The notes under the pieces were generated by a model. The model was not told the origin of the DNA and did no database searches. It was given only the letters and a program-made list of their open reading frames with translations. A program made the translations under genes and the position numbers. Shown one piece after another: positions 1 through 10,060 of a DNA stretch of 64,000 nucleotides. Source of the DNA: an uncultured Traorella sp. (GTDB lineage: Bacteria; Bacillota_I; Bacilli_A; Erysipelotrichales; Erysipelotrichaceae); assembly GCA_944324265.1 (NCBI GenBank), contig CALUVS010000003.1, positions 1-64,000 on the forward strand. Reading direction: 5' to 3'. How positions within the stretch are numbered: the stretch's first letter is position 1; each line of letters begins with the position of its first letter.

Positions 1-63
1 GGCAATCACTGGTCGATTTTCTTCTAATGCTTTCTTTACTTCCGGATTAATTCTTAAATACAT
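1..63 (-). CDS. psuG: Pseudouridine-5'-phosphate glycosidase, N-terminal fragment
   Basis: Only the first 21 codons lie in the window; the gene runs off the left edge. The reading MYLRINPEVKKALEENRPVI matches the conserved PsuG opening (I-x-PEV-x-x-AL then a K/R-P-V-V-A-like stretch that leads into ALESTIISHG in known members). PsuG is known to split pseudouridine 5'-phosphate into uracil and ribose 5-phosphate. The ATG follows a good ribosome binding site (AAAGGAGAAC) and lies 12 bp after the eIF2B-like gene, so it is the fifth gene of the PTS operon. The family call rests on a short match, but the pattern is distinctive. Confidence 0.75.
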   Translation of the reverse strand, partial: MYLRINPEVKKALEENRPVIA

Positions 64-75
64 ATTTGTTCTCCT

Positions 76-1038
76 TTAACCATTTATCAATTTCTGTTCA
101 AGTTCACGCCAATAAGTCAATACTTGTGCTGGAGCCAAAACACCATATTCGGTAATGATTCCCGTAATGTCCTTTGCATAAGTTAAATCAAAAAATTGGT
201 TGATTACTTCCAAGTTTTCAAAAGTTTCAAAATCATCTTCGCTAACCAGTTCCCATTGGGTTCTCCTTTCCAGTTCCACACGATATCCCCGCTGTGTTCT
301 TGGATCTAATTTATATAATTCGCTGGCAAAATATACTGGTTTTTTGCAGTTTCTTGCTAAGCAGGCAATTTGAGCACTGCCCATTTTATTGGCCACAGAA
401 CCATCAGTGCACAATGTATCCACTCCCATGATAATCAAATCGGCCAAAGGCATAAATTCATATACAGAGGCATCTGAAATAAAGGTGACTTTCGCTCCGA
501 CTTCCTGAAGAATTTTCACAGCATTTCGAGATTCTCGCAATGGCCTTGATTCGGTACAGATCACATGAAAGTGTTTGCCCTGATAAGCCGCTTCCTTAAA
601 AATACCCATTAAAGTTGAACTATAACTGTGCATCAGGATTGTATCATTCTCATGAATCAGATTAGCACCATACTTAGCCAATTGTTCAACAGCTTCAAAA
701 GAACTTTCAATGATTTTATCACAAAGATGAACAATTTTCTGTTTAAGAAGCTCCACATCTTCATGATAATTTTGCTCTATTAATTGACTGACAAGCGCAG
801 AACTGTTATGGATTGTTGCCATCGTTGGTTTTAAAGTGTGCATCCGTTCTGCCAAATTATCTATTCTTTTTTTCAAATCATCAATGGAAGAGATATTTTC
901 CTGCTGTACTGCCAGTTTGAAAGCCCAAGCAGCTGCTCTGCCAAAAGGGCTTCCTCCCTTGACATTCATATTCTCAATTTCTTCAATAACATGCTCTGCA
1001 CTTTTAAATTCAATATCTTTTACACGTGTCGTTCTCAT
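76..1038 (-). CDS. eIF2B alpha/beta/delta-family protein (ribose-1,5-bisphosphate isomerase/MtnA superfamily)
   Basis: A 320-residue protein with the eIF2B/MtnA fold signature: an N-terminal helical region with GGSPFGRAAAWAF (29-41), then ILMHSYSSTL (134-143), CTESRP (161-166), and MGVDTLCTDGSVANKMGS (204-221). Superfamily enzymes isomerise ribose 1,5-bisphosphate or methylthioribose 1-phosphate with a Cys (in a THC-type motif) and an Asp. The Asp (D207) and the DGxxxNK motif are present, but the Cys position reads Ser138 (MHSYSS), as in eIF2B subunits. The gene follows EIIBC by 3 bp and precedes psuG by 12 bp, so a role in nucleoside or ribose-phosphate handling is likely. The reaction cannot be assigned from sequence. 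Confidence 0.8.
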   Translation of the reverse strand: MRTTRVKDIEFKSAEHVIEEIENMNVKGGSPFGRAAAWAFKLAVQQENISSIDDLKKRIDNLAERMHTLKPTMATIHNSSALVSQLIEQNYHEDVELLKQKIVHLCDKIIESSFEAVEQLAKYGANLIHENDTILMHSYSSTLMGIFKEAAYQGKHFHVICTESRPLRESRNAVKILQEVGAKVTFISDASVYEFMPLADLIIMGVDTLCTDGSVANKMGSAQIACLARNCKKPVYFASELYKLDPRTQRGYRVELERRTQWELVSEDDFETFENLEVINQFFDLTYAKDITGIITEYGVLAPAQVLTYWRELEQKLING

Positions 1039-1041
1039 ATA

Positions 1042-2421
1042 TTACGCTCCAATCGTTTCATCAATTCCCATGATATAAGTCAAAATAAAGGTTACAGCTC
1101 CGCCAACCAAGCAGCCAAGCATTAATCCGCCGAAGCCAGCACCTAAATAAACTGGGAATGTATAAATAGATAAAGCTACTGCAGCTACTGTACCTGCTCC
1201 GGCCGCTCCAGTAATAGCTCCGCCGATAGCACCGCCGATGCAAACGGCAATCATTGGTTTCTTATATTTCAAGTTCACACCATACATAACCGGTTCTACA
1301 ACACTTCCTGAAAAGAATGAAGTTAAGCTTAATGTTAAAGCATTTTTCTTAATTGTCTTGTCTTTAGCCTTCAATGCAACAGCTAAAGCGGCCGTTACCT
1401 GACAAATCAAGGATGGGGCATGTGTCATGATAATCGTATCACGTCCATACATAGCAATATTCGGTGTGCTGACCAAACCTAAGATAGCAATATGCATACC
1501 GAAGATAATCAGAATCTGCCAAATACCGCCGATGATTGCACCTGCAAGAATTGGTGAGAATTCATAAGTGGCTCTGAAGATATTAGCAAATAATTCACCG
1601 CCCCAAACACCTATAGGACCAATAACAATGATCAGCAAAGGAATCATGACCAAAGCACTTAAGAAAGGAACGAAGATGCTTCTTAATGCATTTGGTAAAA
1701 TACGACGGAAGAATATTTCAAATTTGGAAATCAAGTATGCACTGAAAATTGCAGGCAATACAGAGCTTCCATAATAAACATTTGTTACAGGAATACCTAA
1801 AAATGTAATATTGGTTCCCTCTGCAAATAAATTGGTAAAGCTAGGATAAACCAAAAGTCCCACAACCATTAATGTCACAGATATATTGGCCTTGAAATAT
1901 TTTGCTGCAGACCAAGCAATAAAGATTGGGAAGAATCCATACAATACATCCCCTGCAACTGTTAAGATCTGAATTGTTGAATTAGTTTCAGGAACACCGA
2001 ACAAAACAGCCATCTTTGCAATTGCGGTAATAAATCCGGCTGCCAGCATGGCAGGAATAATCGGTGTTACAATACCTGAAATTGTAGCAATCAAACGATT
2101 GACAACGCTTTGCTTTTCAGCAGGCGCATCCAGATTTTCCTGAATAGTTTCTGCATTGATTCTTGCACTATCCCCAATCAATTTACACGCTTCATCAAAC
2201 ACTTCATCCACAATGCCGCCTAAAACAATTTGATACTGTCCCCCTAGTACAACTACTCTCATTACATCCGGGATTTTTTCAATCTCTTCTTTTTTAACAA
2301 ACGAAGAATCTTTTAACGAAAGGCGCAGTCGAGTCATACAATGAGATATTTCTCTGACATTATCCTTTCCTCCCACATTTTGCAGAATCATTTCTGCCAG
2401 TTGTTTTGCGTTTTGTGCCAT
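1042..2421 (-). CDS. PTS system EIIBC component, beta-glucoside/sucrose-type family
   Basis: A 459-residue membrane permease that imports and phosphorylates a substrate. The N-terminal EIIB domain (about 1-85) has the phospho-cysteine motif SHCMTRLRL with Cys28. The EIIC domain (about 105-455) has around ten membrane segments and the HAPSLICQ and GSVVEPVMYG stretches typical of the glucose-superfamily EIIC. There is no fused EIIA domain; a separate EIIA is encoded upstream. The start follows a GGAG-type site 6 bp after the antiterminator gene. Family similarity would suggest a beta-glucoside or sucrose, but the operon holds no glycosidase and instead carries psuG and an eIF2B-like gene, so the substrate may be a nucleoside. 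Confidence 0.92.
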   Translation of the reverse strand: MAQNAKQLAEMILQNVGGKDNVREISHCMTRLRLSLKDSSFVKKEEIEKIPDVMRVVVLGGQYQIVLGGIVDEVFDEACKLIGDSARINAETIQENLDAPAEKQSVVNRLIATISGIVTPIIPAMLAAGFITAIAKMAVLFGVPETNSTIQILTVAGDVLYGFFPIFIAWSAAKYFKANISVTLMVVGLLVYPSFTNLFAEGTNITFLGIPVTNVYYGSSVLPAIFSAYLISKFEIFFRRILPNALRSIFVPFLSALVMIPLLIIVIGPIGVWGGELFANIFRATYEFSPILAGAIIGGIWQILIIFGMHIAILGLVSTPNIAMYGRDTIIMTHAPSLICQVTAALAVALKAKDKTIKKNALTLSLTSFFSGSVVEPVMYGVNLKYKKPMIAVCIGGAIGGAITGAAGAGTVAAVALSIYTFPVYLGAGFGGLMLGCLVGGAVTFILTYIMGIDETIGA

Positions 2422-2427
2422 TCAAAT

Positions 2428-3288
2428 TCACTCTCCTTTTCTGCTGATAATTGGTACAATATGCAAAGTCAAATAAGCGCATTCCTGCTGACTTACCTTT
2501 AATTGAAATTCGTGCTCGAAGAAATCCTTGATTTTTTCTGCCAACTTCCATTCATATGAATGTGATTGACAGATAGATTCCATCATTGAAGGACTCATCA
2601 CTTCTTTTTCCTCAAATGCTTTGTTTTCGAGCTTACGAATTAAAAAGTACTTGATGTGCGATATCAATCTTCCATAGTAATAGGAATTTTCATCCAAATT
2701 AATATTTTCCAATGAAGATATAAATCGCAAAGTTTCATTGAGCATTGCAATCAATTTCTTATTCTGAGATTGATTTAAATTAGACATGGCTGTTACAAAA
2801 TGAAAAGCAATATAAGCTGCCTCATTTTGATCAAAATGTGTGTGTAATCGCTGATTGATCAGCTGAATGATTTCCATAGCTACATCAAACTCACGATGAT
2901 GAAACATTTTAATTTCAGAAAGCAAAGGATTGATGATACTTTGTCCTTCCTGAAGCATTTTCTGAGCAAAGTAAATATGATCAAGCAATGCAAAATAGAA
3001 GGTATCTGTAAAATCCTGATTAAATCGCTGACTGGCTACTTCCAAAATATCTTTCACCAAATCAAAATACTCATAAGGTATTTCCTGAAGCAGCTGCTCC
3101 AAATAAGAAAAATTTCCTTGAGCAACAAAAACTCGTTCTATCAAAGATGAATCAACAAGACTATTCAATGTTCGATTACATTTGATTCCGATTCCTTTTC
3201 CGAAAAGAATGGTCTCATGTTTATGTTTATTCAGTGCAATAATTGCGTTGTTATTGATTGTTTTGTAGTAATAGTATTGTTGACTCAT
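2428..3288 (-). CDS. BglG/LicT-family transcription antiterminator
   Basis: A 286-residue RNA-binding antiterminator with a co-antiterminator (CAT) domain at about 1-55 (YYYYKTINNNAIIALNKH, with GKGIG near residue 33) and two PTS regulation domains (PRD1 about 70-165, PRD2 about 175-280), each with conserved histidines (for example in ALLDHIYF, IAFHFV and LTLHIVP). Family members bind a leader RNA hairpin when the cognate sugar is present and prevent early termination. It sits 1 bp after the EIIA stop and 6 bp before EIIBC. A terminator hairpin in the leader (3796-3827) is the expected target. Confidence 0.9.
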   Translation of the reverse strand: MSQQYYYYKTINNNAIIALNKHKHETILFGKGIGIKCNRTLNSLVDSSLIERVFVAQGNFSYLEQLLQEIPYEYFDLVKDILEVASQRFNQDFTDTFYFALLDHIYFAQKMLQEGQSIINPLLSEIKMFHHREFDVAMEIIQLINQRLHTHFDQNEAAYIAFHFVTAMSNLNQSQNKKLIAMLNETLRFISSLENINLDENSYYYGRLISHIKYFLIRKLENKAFEEKEVMSPSMMESICQSHSYEWKLAEKIKDFFEHEFQLKVSQQECAYLTLHIVPIISRKGE

Positions 3289-3289
3289 T

Positions 3290-3778
3290 TTATTCTTCCT
3301 CCCTTATACAGCGTATAATACAATCCCCTTCCTCTACCATTTCATTTTCTTTTAAAACACTGACTGAATATCCTTTTCTCTCTAAGATAAATAAATAGAC
3401 ATCCGGATTATATCCAGCTTGTGTTATTTTCTGCGGTTCAAACTCTGCTATCACATCTCCGCGATATATTCTTTCATTCGCATTCAAAGATGAAACAATA
3501 TACTGACCATTCAAATATACCGTATCAATACCAATATGAATCATCAGCTGTATTCCCTCTTTTGTTTCAATACCAAAAGCATGCTTCGTCGGAAACACAC
3601 TGATGACTTTCCCATCCACAGGTGCATATATTTTATTGTCAGCCGGCTGAATAAAGCAGCCTTCCCCCAAAGTTCTAGTACGAAATGTCTCATCCTGTGA
3701 ATGATCCAAAGACATGACTTTTCCTCTGCATGGTGCCTCAATCTTAATCTCATTTCTGTGTTTAAATAATTTGAACAT
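3290..3778 (-). CDS. PTS EIIA component, glucose (Crr) family
   Basis: A 162-residue phosphocarrier. The core shows GKVMSLDHSQDETFRTRTLG, APVDGKV and the active-site stretch LMIHIGIDTV with His81; the second conserved His is His66 (TKHAFGI). It passes phosphate from HPr to the EIIB cysteine. A longer frame opens 60 bp upstream, but the ATG at 3778 has the good site GAGGGAAATCAT before it, and the upstream part is the leader terminator hairpin, so the shorter start is used. First gene of the leftward PTS-antiterminator-psuG operon. Confidence 0.9.
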   Translation of the reverse strand: MFKLFKHRNEIKIEAPCRGKVMSLDHSQDETFRTRTLGEGCFIQPADNKIYAPVDGKVISVFPTKHAFGIETKEGIQLMIHIGIDTVYLNGQYIVSSLNANERIYRGDVIAEFEPQKITQAGYNPDVYLFILERKGYSVSVLKENEMVEEGDCIIRCIREEE

Positions 3779-3795
3779 ATGATTTCCCTCATAAC

Positions 3796-3827
3796 AAAAA
3801 AGGCCCAAAACAAAAACATGTTTTGAG
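3796..3827 (-). terminator. Leader attenuator terminator of the PTS operon
   Basis: On the minus strand CTCAAAACA and TGTTTTGGG form a 9-bp stem (one G-U pair) with a 6-nt loop, followed by CCTTTTTT. It lies between the promoter and the EIIA start, the usual place for a BglG/LicT-controlled attenuator. The upstream 40 nt could form the competing antiterminator, but I could not match a known RAT consensus. Confidence 0.7.
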
Positions 3828-3876
3828 TCTAGCGTCATCTAAAATATAATCTGTGACTAACTAACTTTCTACACTC

Positions 3877-3904
3877 ATTTTAACACATCCCAAAAAGAAG
3901 TCAA
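3877..3904 (-). promoter_or_regulatory. Promoter of the PTS operon
   Basis: Minus-strand TTGACT (3904-3899) and TAAAAT (3882-3877) are separated by 16 bp, close to the housekeeping sigma consensus. The start of transcription would lie near 3870, giving a leader of about 90 nt that contains the attenuator. Confidence 0.6.
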
Positions 3905-4076: not shown

Positions 4077-4898
4077 ATGCATAAACCAAAAATGATCATA
4101 TGTGATATCGATTCAACTCTTGTCGTCAAGCATCAGACATTGACACCTCGTGCGAGAGCGTGCATTGAAAAATTAAGAAGCAGCGGTGTTTATTTCGGCA
4201 TTGCTTCCGGAAGACCCTTGTATCAGATAAGAGAAGGATATGATATGTGGGGGTATGATGACTTTGATCTGACCATTGGTATGAATGGTTCTGTCATTTG
4301 GGATAATATTGATAAAAAAGAATACAATTATTATGTGATGAAAAAGGAATGGCTGAAAGAAACAATTGAGCTGATGGCGCCATTTCAGACAAATCCATCG
4401 GTATATCGTACAGATTCACAGATTTTCTTCAAAGAAGATGAAACACTGAAATTGTATGCACAGTTCTTCAAATCTAAAGTAGAGGTTGCCAAAAGCATCG
4501 AGGATCTTTACAGTGAAGAAACAGCGAAAATCATGTTCCGCTTAGAAAATGAAGAGGATATGCCGAAAGCTGAAAAATGGATTGCTGAGCATCCAAATCC
4601 AAATTATATTGGATTTAAAACACAGCCTTCATTAATTGAATTCTGTGATAAACGAGTGAATAAAGCTTATGCATTGAAGAAATTCTGTGAAATGCATGAC
4701 ATTGATCTGAAAGATGTTATTGCTTTTGGGGATACAACCAATGATAATGAGATGTTAACAGAATCCGGTGTAGGTGTATGCCTGAAAAACGGCAGTGATG
4801 ATACGAAGGCTATTGCTGATTACATTACAGATAAAACTTGCGATGATGATGGATGGGCTGATTTTACTGAGAAATATATTATGCCTTTCATAGAATAA
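4077..4898 (+). CDS. HAD-superfamily Cof-type phosphatase
   Basis: A 273-residue soluble hydrolase of the Cof/YidA group. Motif I is CDIDSTL (nucleophile Asp10, acid Asp12), motif II is IASGRP, and motif IV is FGDTTNDNEML near residue 217. A type IIB cap domain fills the middle. These enzymes dephosphorylate sugar phosphates and similar small molecules; the substrate is not readable from sequence. The ATG follows AAGGGTGA. It is monocistronic, ended by a hairpin shared with the convergent WYL regulator gene. Confidence 0.88.
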   Translation: MHKPKMIICDIDSTLVVKHQTLTPRARACIEKLRSSGVYFGIASGRPLYQIREGYDMWGYDDFDLTIGMNGSVIWDNIDKKEYNYYVMKKEWLKETIELMAPFQTNPSVYRTDSQIFFKEDETLKLYAQFFKSKVEVAKSIEDLYSEETAKIMFRLENEEDMPKAEKWIAEHPNPNYIGFKTQPSLIEFCDKRVNKAYALKKFCEMHDIDLKDVIAFGDTTNDNEMLTESGVGVCLKNGSDDTKAIADYITDKTCDDDGWADFTEKYIMPFIE

Positions 4899-8379: not shown

Positions 8380-8682
8380 TCAATCCTGCATCAACAATCT
8401 GACTTGTTCAATCACTGCTTTTCCATCCATTCTTCCATAATCCTTCATACTGATGGAAGCCACCGTTTTGCTTGGAAATGTCCGTTTCAGATCACTTAAA
8501 TGAAAACGAACCTGAGGACCCAGAAGCAAGATATCCCATTGGGCACCGATTGTTTTTACCATTGAAATAGGATGAGCTTCAATTTCAGTTTCATACTCCA
8601 TCTTGCGTGCAGCTTTCTGCATATTGACCATCAATAAACTGGTCGACATGCCCGCCGAACATATTAATAATATTTTTCTCAT
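8380..8682 (-). CDS. PTS lactose/cellobiose-type EIIB component
   Basis: A 100-residue EIIB with the phosphocysteine loop ICSAGMSTSLL (Cys8) and the family-typical LLGPQVRFHLSDLK. It receives phosphate from an EIIA and passes it to the incoming disaccharide. The start overlaps the EIIC stop by 4 bp (ATGA), so the two are translationally coupled. No matching lactose-type EIIA or glycosidase is nearby; these must come from elsewhere in the genome. Confidence 0.92.
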   Translation of the reverse strand: MRKILLICSAGMSTSLLMVNMQKAARKMEYETEIEAHPISMVKTIGAQWDILLLGPQVRFHLSDLKRTFPSKTVASISMKDYGRMDGKAVIEQVRLLMQD

Positions 8683-9998
8683 TGGTTTTTCTTATAAGCA
8701 TTATTGGCAGCAATGACAAATGGCAGATATATAACAATGGCCACTAATAAACAGCAAAGTGCAGTCAAAGCAGCACCAATCGAACCATTCGTAGCTAAAT
8801 ACGCTCCTAATATCGGCGGTGTTGTCCATGGCACTGTATTTACGATCGGTCCGGCAAATCCGCTGAGTGTCGCATAATAAGCAACCAATGTCATGACTGG
8901 CTGACATAAAACAAACGGAATCAGATAAATGGCATTCAATACTACCGGAAGTCCGAACAAGACCGGTTCATTGACCTGGAAAAGGCCGCATCCCAGACCA
9001 TATTTCGCTACTTCACGGTCTTCTTTTGCTTTTGAAATCCAAAGCAAGGCAATCACAAGGGCTGAAGTAGCTCCGCTGCCTCCCAGAAAGACATAAACAT
9101 TCCAGCTGTCTCTCACCCATGGAGATAATTCATTAAGTCCTGTCCCCACTGTGCGGATTCCATTTTGAAAGCCTTGAATGTTCAATTGATTCAAAGTACC
9201 GTAAATTGGTGCCATAACTGCTTCCATCAAATTCGCACCATGCAGTCCGAAAAACCACAGCAGCGGAATCAAGGCAGAAATCAATAGGATTGAAAATATA
9301 TTTTGTCCTAACTGCATCAAGGTCGCTTGAATATTCGTTTCAAACCAAGTAAAGACATTCATGCTTGTCAGCATAATAAAGCCATAATAAACCAAAGCAA
9401 AAGCGAAAATGGTTAAAAATCCGGGAATGATTCCAGCAAAGGCCTTTGCCACTGCCGGCGGTACAGAATCCGGCATCTGGATGATCCAGCCCTTATTCAC
9501 AGCCCAGAAATATATTTCAGGTGCAATCAGACCAACTACAAGAGCAATAAAAATTCCCTGAGCTCCTAAAAAGTGCGTAATATAACTGGCAACCAGCGGA
9601 TTATTTCTGGATAAGGCACCGCACAAGATGAAACAGCCTACAGTAACCAATCCGCAGGACAAGGCATCCTTATTCTCACTTTCTGCTCGTTTGAATCCCA
9701 AAGCAAAGCATAAGCCCAAGGCTAATATCGAAAGTGATCCTGCATCCATCGCACTGAAGATCGGAGCGATGTACATGGTTGTCCATAAAATAAATGGATG
9801 TTCTGCCCCGATAAAATTCGCTACTAATCCCCATGATACAAAGAAAATATTATTCATCAATACGGCAACTGCCCCTGCCATGATCAGCGGCATCAAAGAG
9901 GCAAAAGCGTCACGAATAGCTGCCAAATGTTTCTGCGCCCCTAATTTAGCCGCCAATGGTACAAACTTTACTTCAATCAATCGAATAAAGCCATCCAT
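8679..9998 (-). CDS. PTS lactose/cellobiose-type EIIC permease
   Basis: A 439-residue membrane component of the CelB type. The start MDGFIRLIEVKFVPLAAKLG aligns with CelB proteins, and GLHGANLMEAVMAPIYG, FLGGSGAT and NEPVLFGLPVVLN are characteristic substrate-pathway segments. About ten membrane segments. A longer frame opens at 10055, but the ATG at 9998 has GGAGAAGGAGAAAAAT directly upstream while the outer codon has none. Its promoter is not clear; the ogt terminator lies just upstream. With the IIB gene it forms an incomplete EII lacking EIIA. Confidence 0.9.
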   Translation of the reverse strand: MDGFIRLIEVKFVPLAAKLGAQKHLAAIRDAFASLMPLIMAGAVAVLMNNIFFVSWGLVANFIGAEHPFILWTTMYIAPIFSAMDAGSLSILALGLCFALGFKRAESENKDALSCGLVTVGCFILCGALSRNNPLVASYITHFLGAQGIFIALVVGLIAPEIYFWAVNKGWIIQMPDSVPPAVAKAFAGIIPGFLTIFAFALVYYGFIMLTSMNVFTWFETNIQATLMQLGQNIFSILLISALIPLLWFFGLHGANLMEAVMAPIYGTLNQLNIQGFQNGIRTVGTGLNELSPWVRDSWNVYVFLGGSGATSALVIALLWISKAKEDREVAKYGLGCGLFQVNEPVLFGLPVVLNAIYLIPFVLCQPVMTLVAYYATLSGFAGPIVNTVPWTTPPILGAYLATNGSIGAALTALCCLLVAIVIYLPFVIAANNAYKKNQ

Positions 9999-10060
9999 AT
10001 TTTTCTCCTTCTCCAATTTGGAATCTATTGCCAGTTTATGCTTCTTTTGATTCATTTAGA

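Follow-up and report, generated by a model that had tools for sequence, protein, structure and literature searches.

The window analysed here is a 64,000-nucleotide stretch of DNA from an uncultured Traorella sp. of the family Erysipelotrichaceae (contig CALUVS010000003.1, positions 1 to 64,000; G000:C3:1-64000, where G000 is the window genome and C3 the contig). Its left edge holds a minus-strand unit that encodes, in order of transcription, an EIIA protein of the phosphotransferase system (PTS), a LicT/BglG-type antiterminator, a PTS EIIBC permease, a protein with the eIF2B fold and the start of PsuG, the glycosidase acting on pseudouridine 5′-phosphate. This operon probably specifies a phosphoenolpyruvate (PEP)-dependent group translocator whose substrate is pseudouridine or a C-nucleoside very similar to it. 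On balance, we also lean towards a more specific proposal, namely that this would be the first nucleoside PTS, that it would import pseudouridine as the 5′-phosphate and render the kinase PsuK dispensable, as in Longicatena caecimuris and Amedibacillus dolichus, and that the eIF2B-fold protein would have a new sugar-phosphate function. The known substrates of PTS permeases are sugars, sugar alcohols, amino sugars and ascorbate; no PTS for pseudouridine or another nucleoside was found described in the open-access literature.

The coordinates and the Pfam matches agreed with the initial annotation in depicting a single leftward unit with gaps of 1–12 bp (1, 6, 3 and 12 bp from 5′ to 3′). The EIIA gene (3290..3778, minus strand, as for all genes of the operon) codes for a protein of the glucose type (PTS_EIIA_1, E = 1.8e-39). 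Its longest reading frame opens at position 3838, within the leader. Since this ATG falls inside the attenuator, the true start is most likely the ATG at 3778, which is preceded by a ribosome binding site (RBS) and gives a product of 162 aa, the orthologue at locus L031 having 163 aa. The antiterminator (2428..3288) comprises a CAT RNA-binding domain (CAT_RBD, 40.6 bits) and two PRDs (114.7 bits in two stretches). The EIIBC (1042..2421; Pfam PTS_EIIB and PTS_EIIC) belongs to a clade of its own in the glucose/beta-glucoside superfamily, and the eIF2B-fold protein (76..1038; Pfam IF-2B, E = 3.8e-59) is a relative of ribose-1,5-bisphosphate (R15P) isomerase. Contig C3 begins inside psuG, so that the window contains the first 21 codons of this gene (1..63, with the start at 63).

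The EIIBC-eIF2B-psuG neighbourhood recurs in other genera. Of 316 genomes of the order, four, from four genera, have EIIBC orthologues (76–80% identical): the window genome and three others, to which a pattern scan of contigs, which diverged EIIBCs may escape, gave the names Longicatena caecimuris DSM 29481, Amedibacillus dolichus DSM 3991 and uncultured Erysipelotrichaceae bacterium (G128). All four loci have the same genes in the same order, EIIA-antiterminator-EIIBC-eIF2B-psuG, and no other gene set was found. In the three relatives (G033, G079 and G128) psuG is complete, lies on a single contig with the rest of the operon, and its product scores above the Indigoidine_A cut-off. The initial annotation had regarded a beta-glucosidase in the operon as evidence against a pseudouridine PTS; no phospho-beta-glucosidase gene is present in any of the four. 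The four operons also lack psuK, and neither psuK nor a permease gene, which the initial annotation had likewise named as contrary evidence, follows psuG.

The eIF2B-like family was also found at three loci lacking the PTS. In genome G104 (L030) it accompanies psuG and a divergent nucleoside ABC transporter of the BMP type; in G118 (L034), genes for PsuG, a BMP ABC transporter and an ADP-ribosylglycohydrolase; and in G099 (L035), which has no psuG at this site, genes for a PfkB kinase, BtpA, an ADP-ribosylglycohydrolase-like protein and a BMP ABC transporter. Since these loci carry an ABC importer, and L035 a kinase as well, the PTS appears to occupy the place of the importer and, with respect to L035, that of the kinase too. 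No member of the eIF2B-like family was detected beyond the taxonomic family in samples of 392 genomes from across the phylum and 395 from across the class. Separately, the BtpA-family, eIF2B-like and PfkB genes beside the BMP-type transporter of L035 (6232-9032) may form an undescribed nucleoside catabolic set.

In 23 of the 30 psuG loci sampled in the order, psuK lies directly ahead of psuG; its absence from the PTS operon is therefore a departure from the usual arrangement. The genomes of L. caecimuris and of A. dolichus each contain a single psuG, the copy in the PTS operon, and a whole-genome search with the PsuK of the window genome as query revealed no PsuK in either. The best matches (28% and 20% identity, with E values of 1.9e-12 and 9e-6, respectively) were a FruK-like protein and a remote PfkB protein; the E values obtained for the window genome, G128, G104, G118 and G099 ranged from 1e-45 to 6e-210. 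Escherichia coli PsuK contacts pseudouridine through Asn14, Val42, Tyr97, Met114, Ser167 and Lys170 (PMC9247573); the FruK-like and PfkB proteins lack most of these residues, which are kept in the PsuK of the window genome and of G128. That two carriers have no PsuK indicates that the PTS probably phosphorylates pseudouridine during import. Further, neither BMP lipoproteins nor CNT permeases (nucleoside transporters of the BMP and CNT types) were found in A. dolichus; L. caecimuris has one BMP protein, encoded elsewhere. The window genome and G128 hold psuK apart from the PTS operon, in a psuK-psuG module of its own. The earlier proposal that the PTS replaces PsuK and a permease thus gains from the two carriers devoid of PsuK, A. 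dolichus lacking the transporters as well, and is weakened by the PsuK encoded beside a psuG in the window genome and by an eIF2B-like gene that it leaves unexplained.

Two PsuK-like kinases of the survey, at L109 (2668-3624) and L111 (5519-6448), carry Ser143 instead of Asn143 and Tyr170 instead of Lys170, and the neighbouring PsuGs lie on a long shared branch. The L111 kinase is encoded near three nucleoside-hydrolase-like genes and a nucleoside-type ABC transporter. These kinases may act on another C-nucleoside.

The start of psuG in the window (about 20 codons) gives no Pfam match and is too short for a family call; its identity rests on two other contigs of the same genome, C34 and C48, and on the full-length psuG at the equivalent place in three genera. 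The edge of C34 carries a psuG 3′-end (the last 51 residues; Indigoidine_A 56.2 bits versus a cut-off of 25.2), after which come a terminator-like repeat and a MerR-like gene in convergent orientation. Accordingly, the inspection to the left of position 1 that had been recommended earlier found psuG itself cut by the contig end and, after the tail on C34, no psuK or permease gene. Contig C48 begins with a psuK (G000:C48:77-1012, L078); over 294 aa, its product has 39% identity with E. coli PsuK. The notion that psuK is missing from the window organism was thus rejected, although the initial annotation was right in placing none between the genes of the operon. This psuK directly precedes a psuG start identical to that of the window over exactly 77 nt, from the psuG RBS on. 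The 77-base overlap between C3 and C48 looks like the fork that an assembly with k=77 leaves at a duplicated psuG and, since C34 stops inside psuG too, the middle of the gene, absent from the assembly, appears to have been lost as a collapsed repeat. No second contig leading out of psuG was found in the assembly besides C34. We infer that psuG is present twice in the window genome, in copies identical at least in part, of which one lies behind psuK and the other behind the PTS and eIF2B-like genes. The two psuG ends share 17 of 21 and 38 of 51 residues with a psuK-linked psuG of the same genus (L059), versus only 9–11 of 21 and 27–28 of 51 with the PTS-linked psuGs of other genera. The identical starts of the PTS-linked and psuK-linked copies fit one shared substrate.

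An alignment showed Glu31, Lys93, Asp149, Lys166 and Asn289 to be kept in all the PTS-linked PsuGs of the relatives. The phylogenetic tree placed these three proteins in a well supported clade together with the eIF2B-linked PsuG of G118 and the psuK-adjacent PsuG of L075; because it includes the latter, the clade is compatible with the product of PsuK as substrate. The PTS-linked PsuGs of the three genera have Tyr at position 140, as does that of L075. The eIF2B-linked PsuG of G104 is of the ordinary type; eIF2B-linked PsuGs are thus split over the tree, and the PsuG type alone is no marker of the module. E. coli PsuG takes several pentose 5-phosphates, is inactive on glucose 6-phosphate (Glc6P), mannose 6-phosphate (Man6P) and ribulose 5-phosphate, and has an unfavourable hydrolysis equilibrium (8.9e-5 M; PMC7722734). 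Given this inactivity on hexose 6-phosphates, the product of the PTS, if it feeds PsuG, should be a pentosyl 5′-phosphate C-nucleoside. A C-hexoside imported by the PTS and cut by PsuG was considered as well; the inactivity on Glc6P and Man6P, known for the E. coli enzyme only (PMC7722734), makes it unlikely.

The EII looks functional, its catalytic motifs being in place: the phosphorylation residue Cys28 of EIIB, and His310 (GMH310) and Glu376-Pro377 of EIIC, are invariant with BglF, AscF, TreB and MurP. In a tree with these four E. coli proteins and same-genome paralogues, the EIIBCs of the operons formed a 100/100 clade on a long stem. The clade motifs GMHIAILGLVSxPN and GxVxEP contain an extra residue beside each catalytic motif that is present in none of 20 other EIIBCs. 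These insertions suggest an altered substrate site, without naming the substrate. The best TIGR model was TIGR01995 (beta-glucoside EII), with 405.0 bits, under its cut-off of 614.7, a score lowered because the EIIBC gene is split from that of EIIA. The nearest relative of the clade (L130) and a paralogue in the window genome (L131) reside in ordinary operons with an antiterminator gene and a GH1-like gene, the latter assigned by reading its N-terminal sequence.

The structure modelled for the eIF2B-fold protein from seven sequences (pLDDT 86.7) has as its best PDB match the R15P isomerase 5yfs (TM 0.87); the score with the R15P isomerase model TIGR00511 was 212.7 bits, under the cut-off of 314.1. 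The ligand sites of seven family members were compared by mapping them onto PH0208 (PMC5789824). The side chains that bind the 5-phosphate are kept (Ser140, Thr in one member, and Lys243), as are the sugar ligands Asp207, Asn217 and Lys218, Asp207 corresponding to the catalytic Asp204 of PH0208. All three side chains specific for the 1-phosphate are changed, Arg22 to Lys (Arg in one member), Arg65 to Lys and Gln166 to Glu, and the catalytic Cys135 of PH0208 is replaced by Ser138, a Ser in all seven members. The C135S variant of PH0208 is inactive and retains substrate binding (PMC5789824). The replacement of Cys by Ser and the TIGR00511 score led us to reject an ordinary R15P isomerase. The ligand of the protein is probably a ribose 5-phosphate compound, but it is not an R15P isomerase of a known kind. 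It might remove ribose 5-phosphate and so pull the PsuG reaction; it is also possible that it acts on the nucleotide itself, or that it is a sensor as in eIF2B-alpha.

The promoter and attenuator reported earlier ahead of EIIA were both present, on the minus strand. The sigma-70-type promoter (3877..3904; TTGACT-16-TAAAAT with an extended TG) matches the consensus in 10 of 12 positions. It is followed by a conserved antiterminator-like hairpin of the GGTTAG...CTAGACC type (3826..3866), which overlaps the 5′ edge of an intrinsic terminator (3804..3827; one found versus 0.1 expected). Hairpins of this type occur in the leaders of all four species, their 3′ arm meeting the terminator stem; RNAalifold predicted a consensus structure with 19 pairs, five of them with two-sided, pair-keeping changes, though from few sequences. 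The layout is that of BglG/LicT-type antitermination, as a matter of anatomy rather than proof. An Rfam scan of the leader gave a sub-threshold match only, likely due to chance. In L. caecimuris and A. dolichus (L031 and L032), cre-like sequences (TGCAAACGCTTCCA and TGCAAACGTTTACA) were noticed by eye in the leader, just before the -10 region; they suggest CcpA control, which would fit a carbon-source operon. None was obvious in the window.

In the mechanism proposed, phosphate from EI and HPr would pass via EIIA and EIIBC onto the ribose 5′-hydroxyl of pseudouridine during uptake, and the antiterminator, judging from the leader, would let transcription past the terminator upon substrate uptake. 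PsuG, as established for its family, would split the C-C glycosidic bond to give uracil and ribose 5-phosphate, and the eIF2B-fold protein, by binding a ribose 5-phosphate compound and consuming the product of PsuG, could perhaps pull the unfavourable equilibrium. As in the psuK-psuG-psuT system of E. coli (YeiC, YeiN, YeiM), the PsuG catalytic residues are present and the nucleoside would be presented as a 5′-phosphate; unlike that system, the operon has no kinase or CNT permease, and has EIIA, EIIBC and the eIF2B-fold protein. It shares with beta-glucoside PTS operons (bglG-bglF-bglB; LicT-regulated) the antiterminator, the EIIA, an EIIBC of the same superfamily, a leader terminator with an overlapping antiterminator hairpin, and an enzyme cutting the phosphorylated glycoside in last place. 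It differs from them in having PsuG instead of a GH1 phospho-beta-glucosidase, an extra eIF2B-fold gene, and one-residue insertions in the EIIC motifs GMHIAILG and GxVxEP. The eIF2B-fold protein resembles archaeal R15P isomerase (PH0208/TK0185) and MtnA in fold, 5-phosphate site and sugar ligands, and departs from the archaeal enzyme in its Ser, its 1-phosphate ligands and its sub-cut-off score. Finally, the BMP-type loci (L030, L034 and L035) likewise combine a gene of the eIF2B-like family with psuG or a PfkB gene in a setting of nucleoside uptake, with ABC uptake and a separate kinase in lieu of the PTS.

Several points weigh against a pseudouridine PTS. The characterised EIIs of the glucose/beta-glucoside superfamily phosphorylate hexose 6-hydroxyls. 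Just four species carry the module, two of them with PsuK besides, and the psuG of the window is not assembled through. PsuK and PsuG suffice in E. coli, which leaves the eIF2B-like gene unexplained; this gene is not specific to PsuG either, since L035 has it without psuG. Its constant presence in the operon would be accounted for if the PTS imported some other pentose C- or N-glycoside (N1-methylpseudouridine, another C-nucleoside or an unusual ribosyl compound) and phosphorylated it at O5, the eIF2B-fold protein isomerising the product and PsuG or PsuG-like chemistry finishing the pathway. The changed 1-phosphate ligands and the Cys to Ser change would be expected if C1 bore a non-phosphate group, and the PTS-linked PsuGs of three genera form the Tyr140 clade. 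However, this clade also holds the psuK-adjacent L075, the PTS-linked psuG start in the window matches the psuK-linked one, and the eIF2B-linked PsuG of G104 is ordinary; we consider such a substrate unlikely, while taking it seriously.

It appears more doubtful still that the substrate of the PTS is an ordinary sugar or aryl-glucoside and that the eIF2B-like gene and psuG serve housekeeping nucleoside salvage with no link to transport. The TIGR01995 match and the nearest relatives in GH1-type operons point in that direction; against this, the gene order is kept over four genera with two PsuG types and no glycosidase, the EIIC motifs are altered and two species lack PsuK. That the junction of the PTS and psuG in the window is an assembly artefact (a collapsed repeat or strain mixture), with psuG following psuK alone, seems very improbable. 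Contigs C3 and C48 do end in the same 77-mer, as is typical of a k=77 fork, and there is one psuG exit, C34. Yet in each of L. caecimuris, A. dolichus and G128 the genes follow this order on one contig that includes the whole of psuG, and the breaks at both psuG ends require two copies of its middle.

Two neighbouring features of the window were also recorded. A gene for a HAD-like phosphatase (4077-4898, plus strand) diverges from the PTS operon and was not seen beside it in the other three genera. Adjacent genes at 8380-10055 (minus strand) encode a second PTS, with an EIIB of the lactose/cellobiose type and an EIIC.

The two carriers that lack PsuK are cultured strains, which makes a pseudouridine PTS directly testable. 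If it exists, the substrate range of the PTS would be widened to a nucleoside, and gut bacteria would be able to process a modified RNA nucleoside without a kinase. It would also offer a one-step entry to pseudouridine 5′-phosphate, which is of interest for the production of mRNA.

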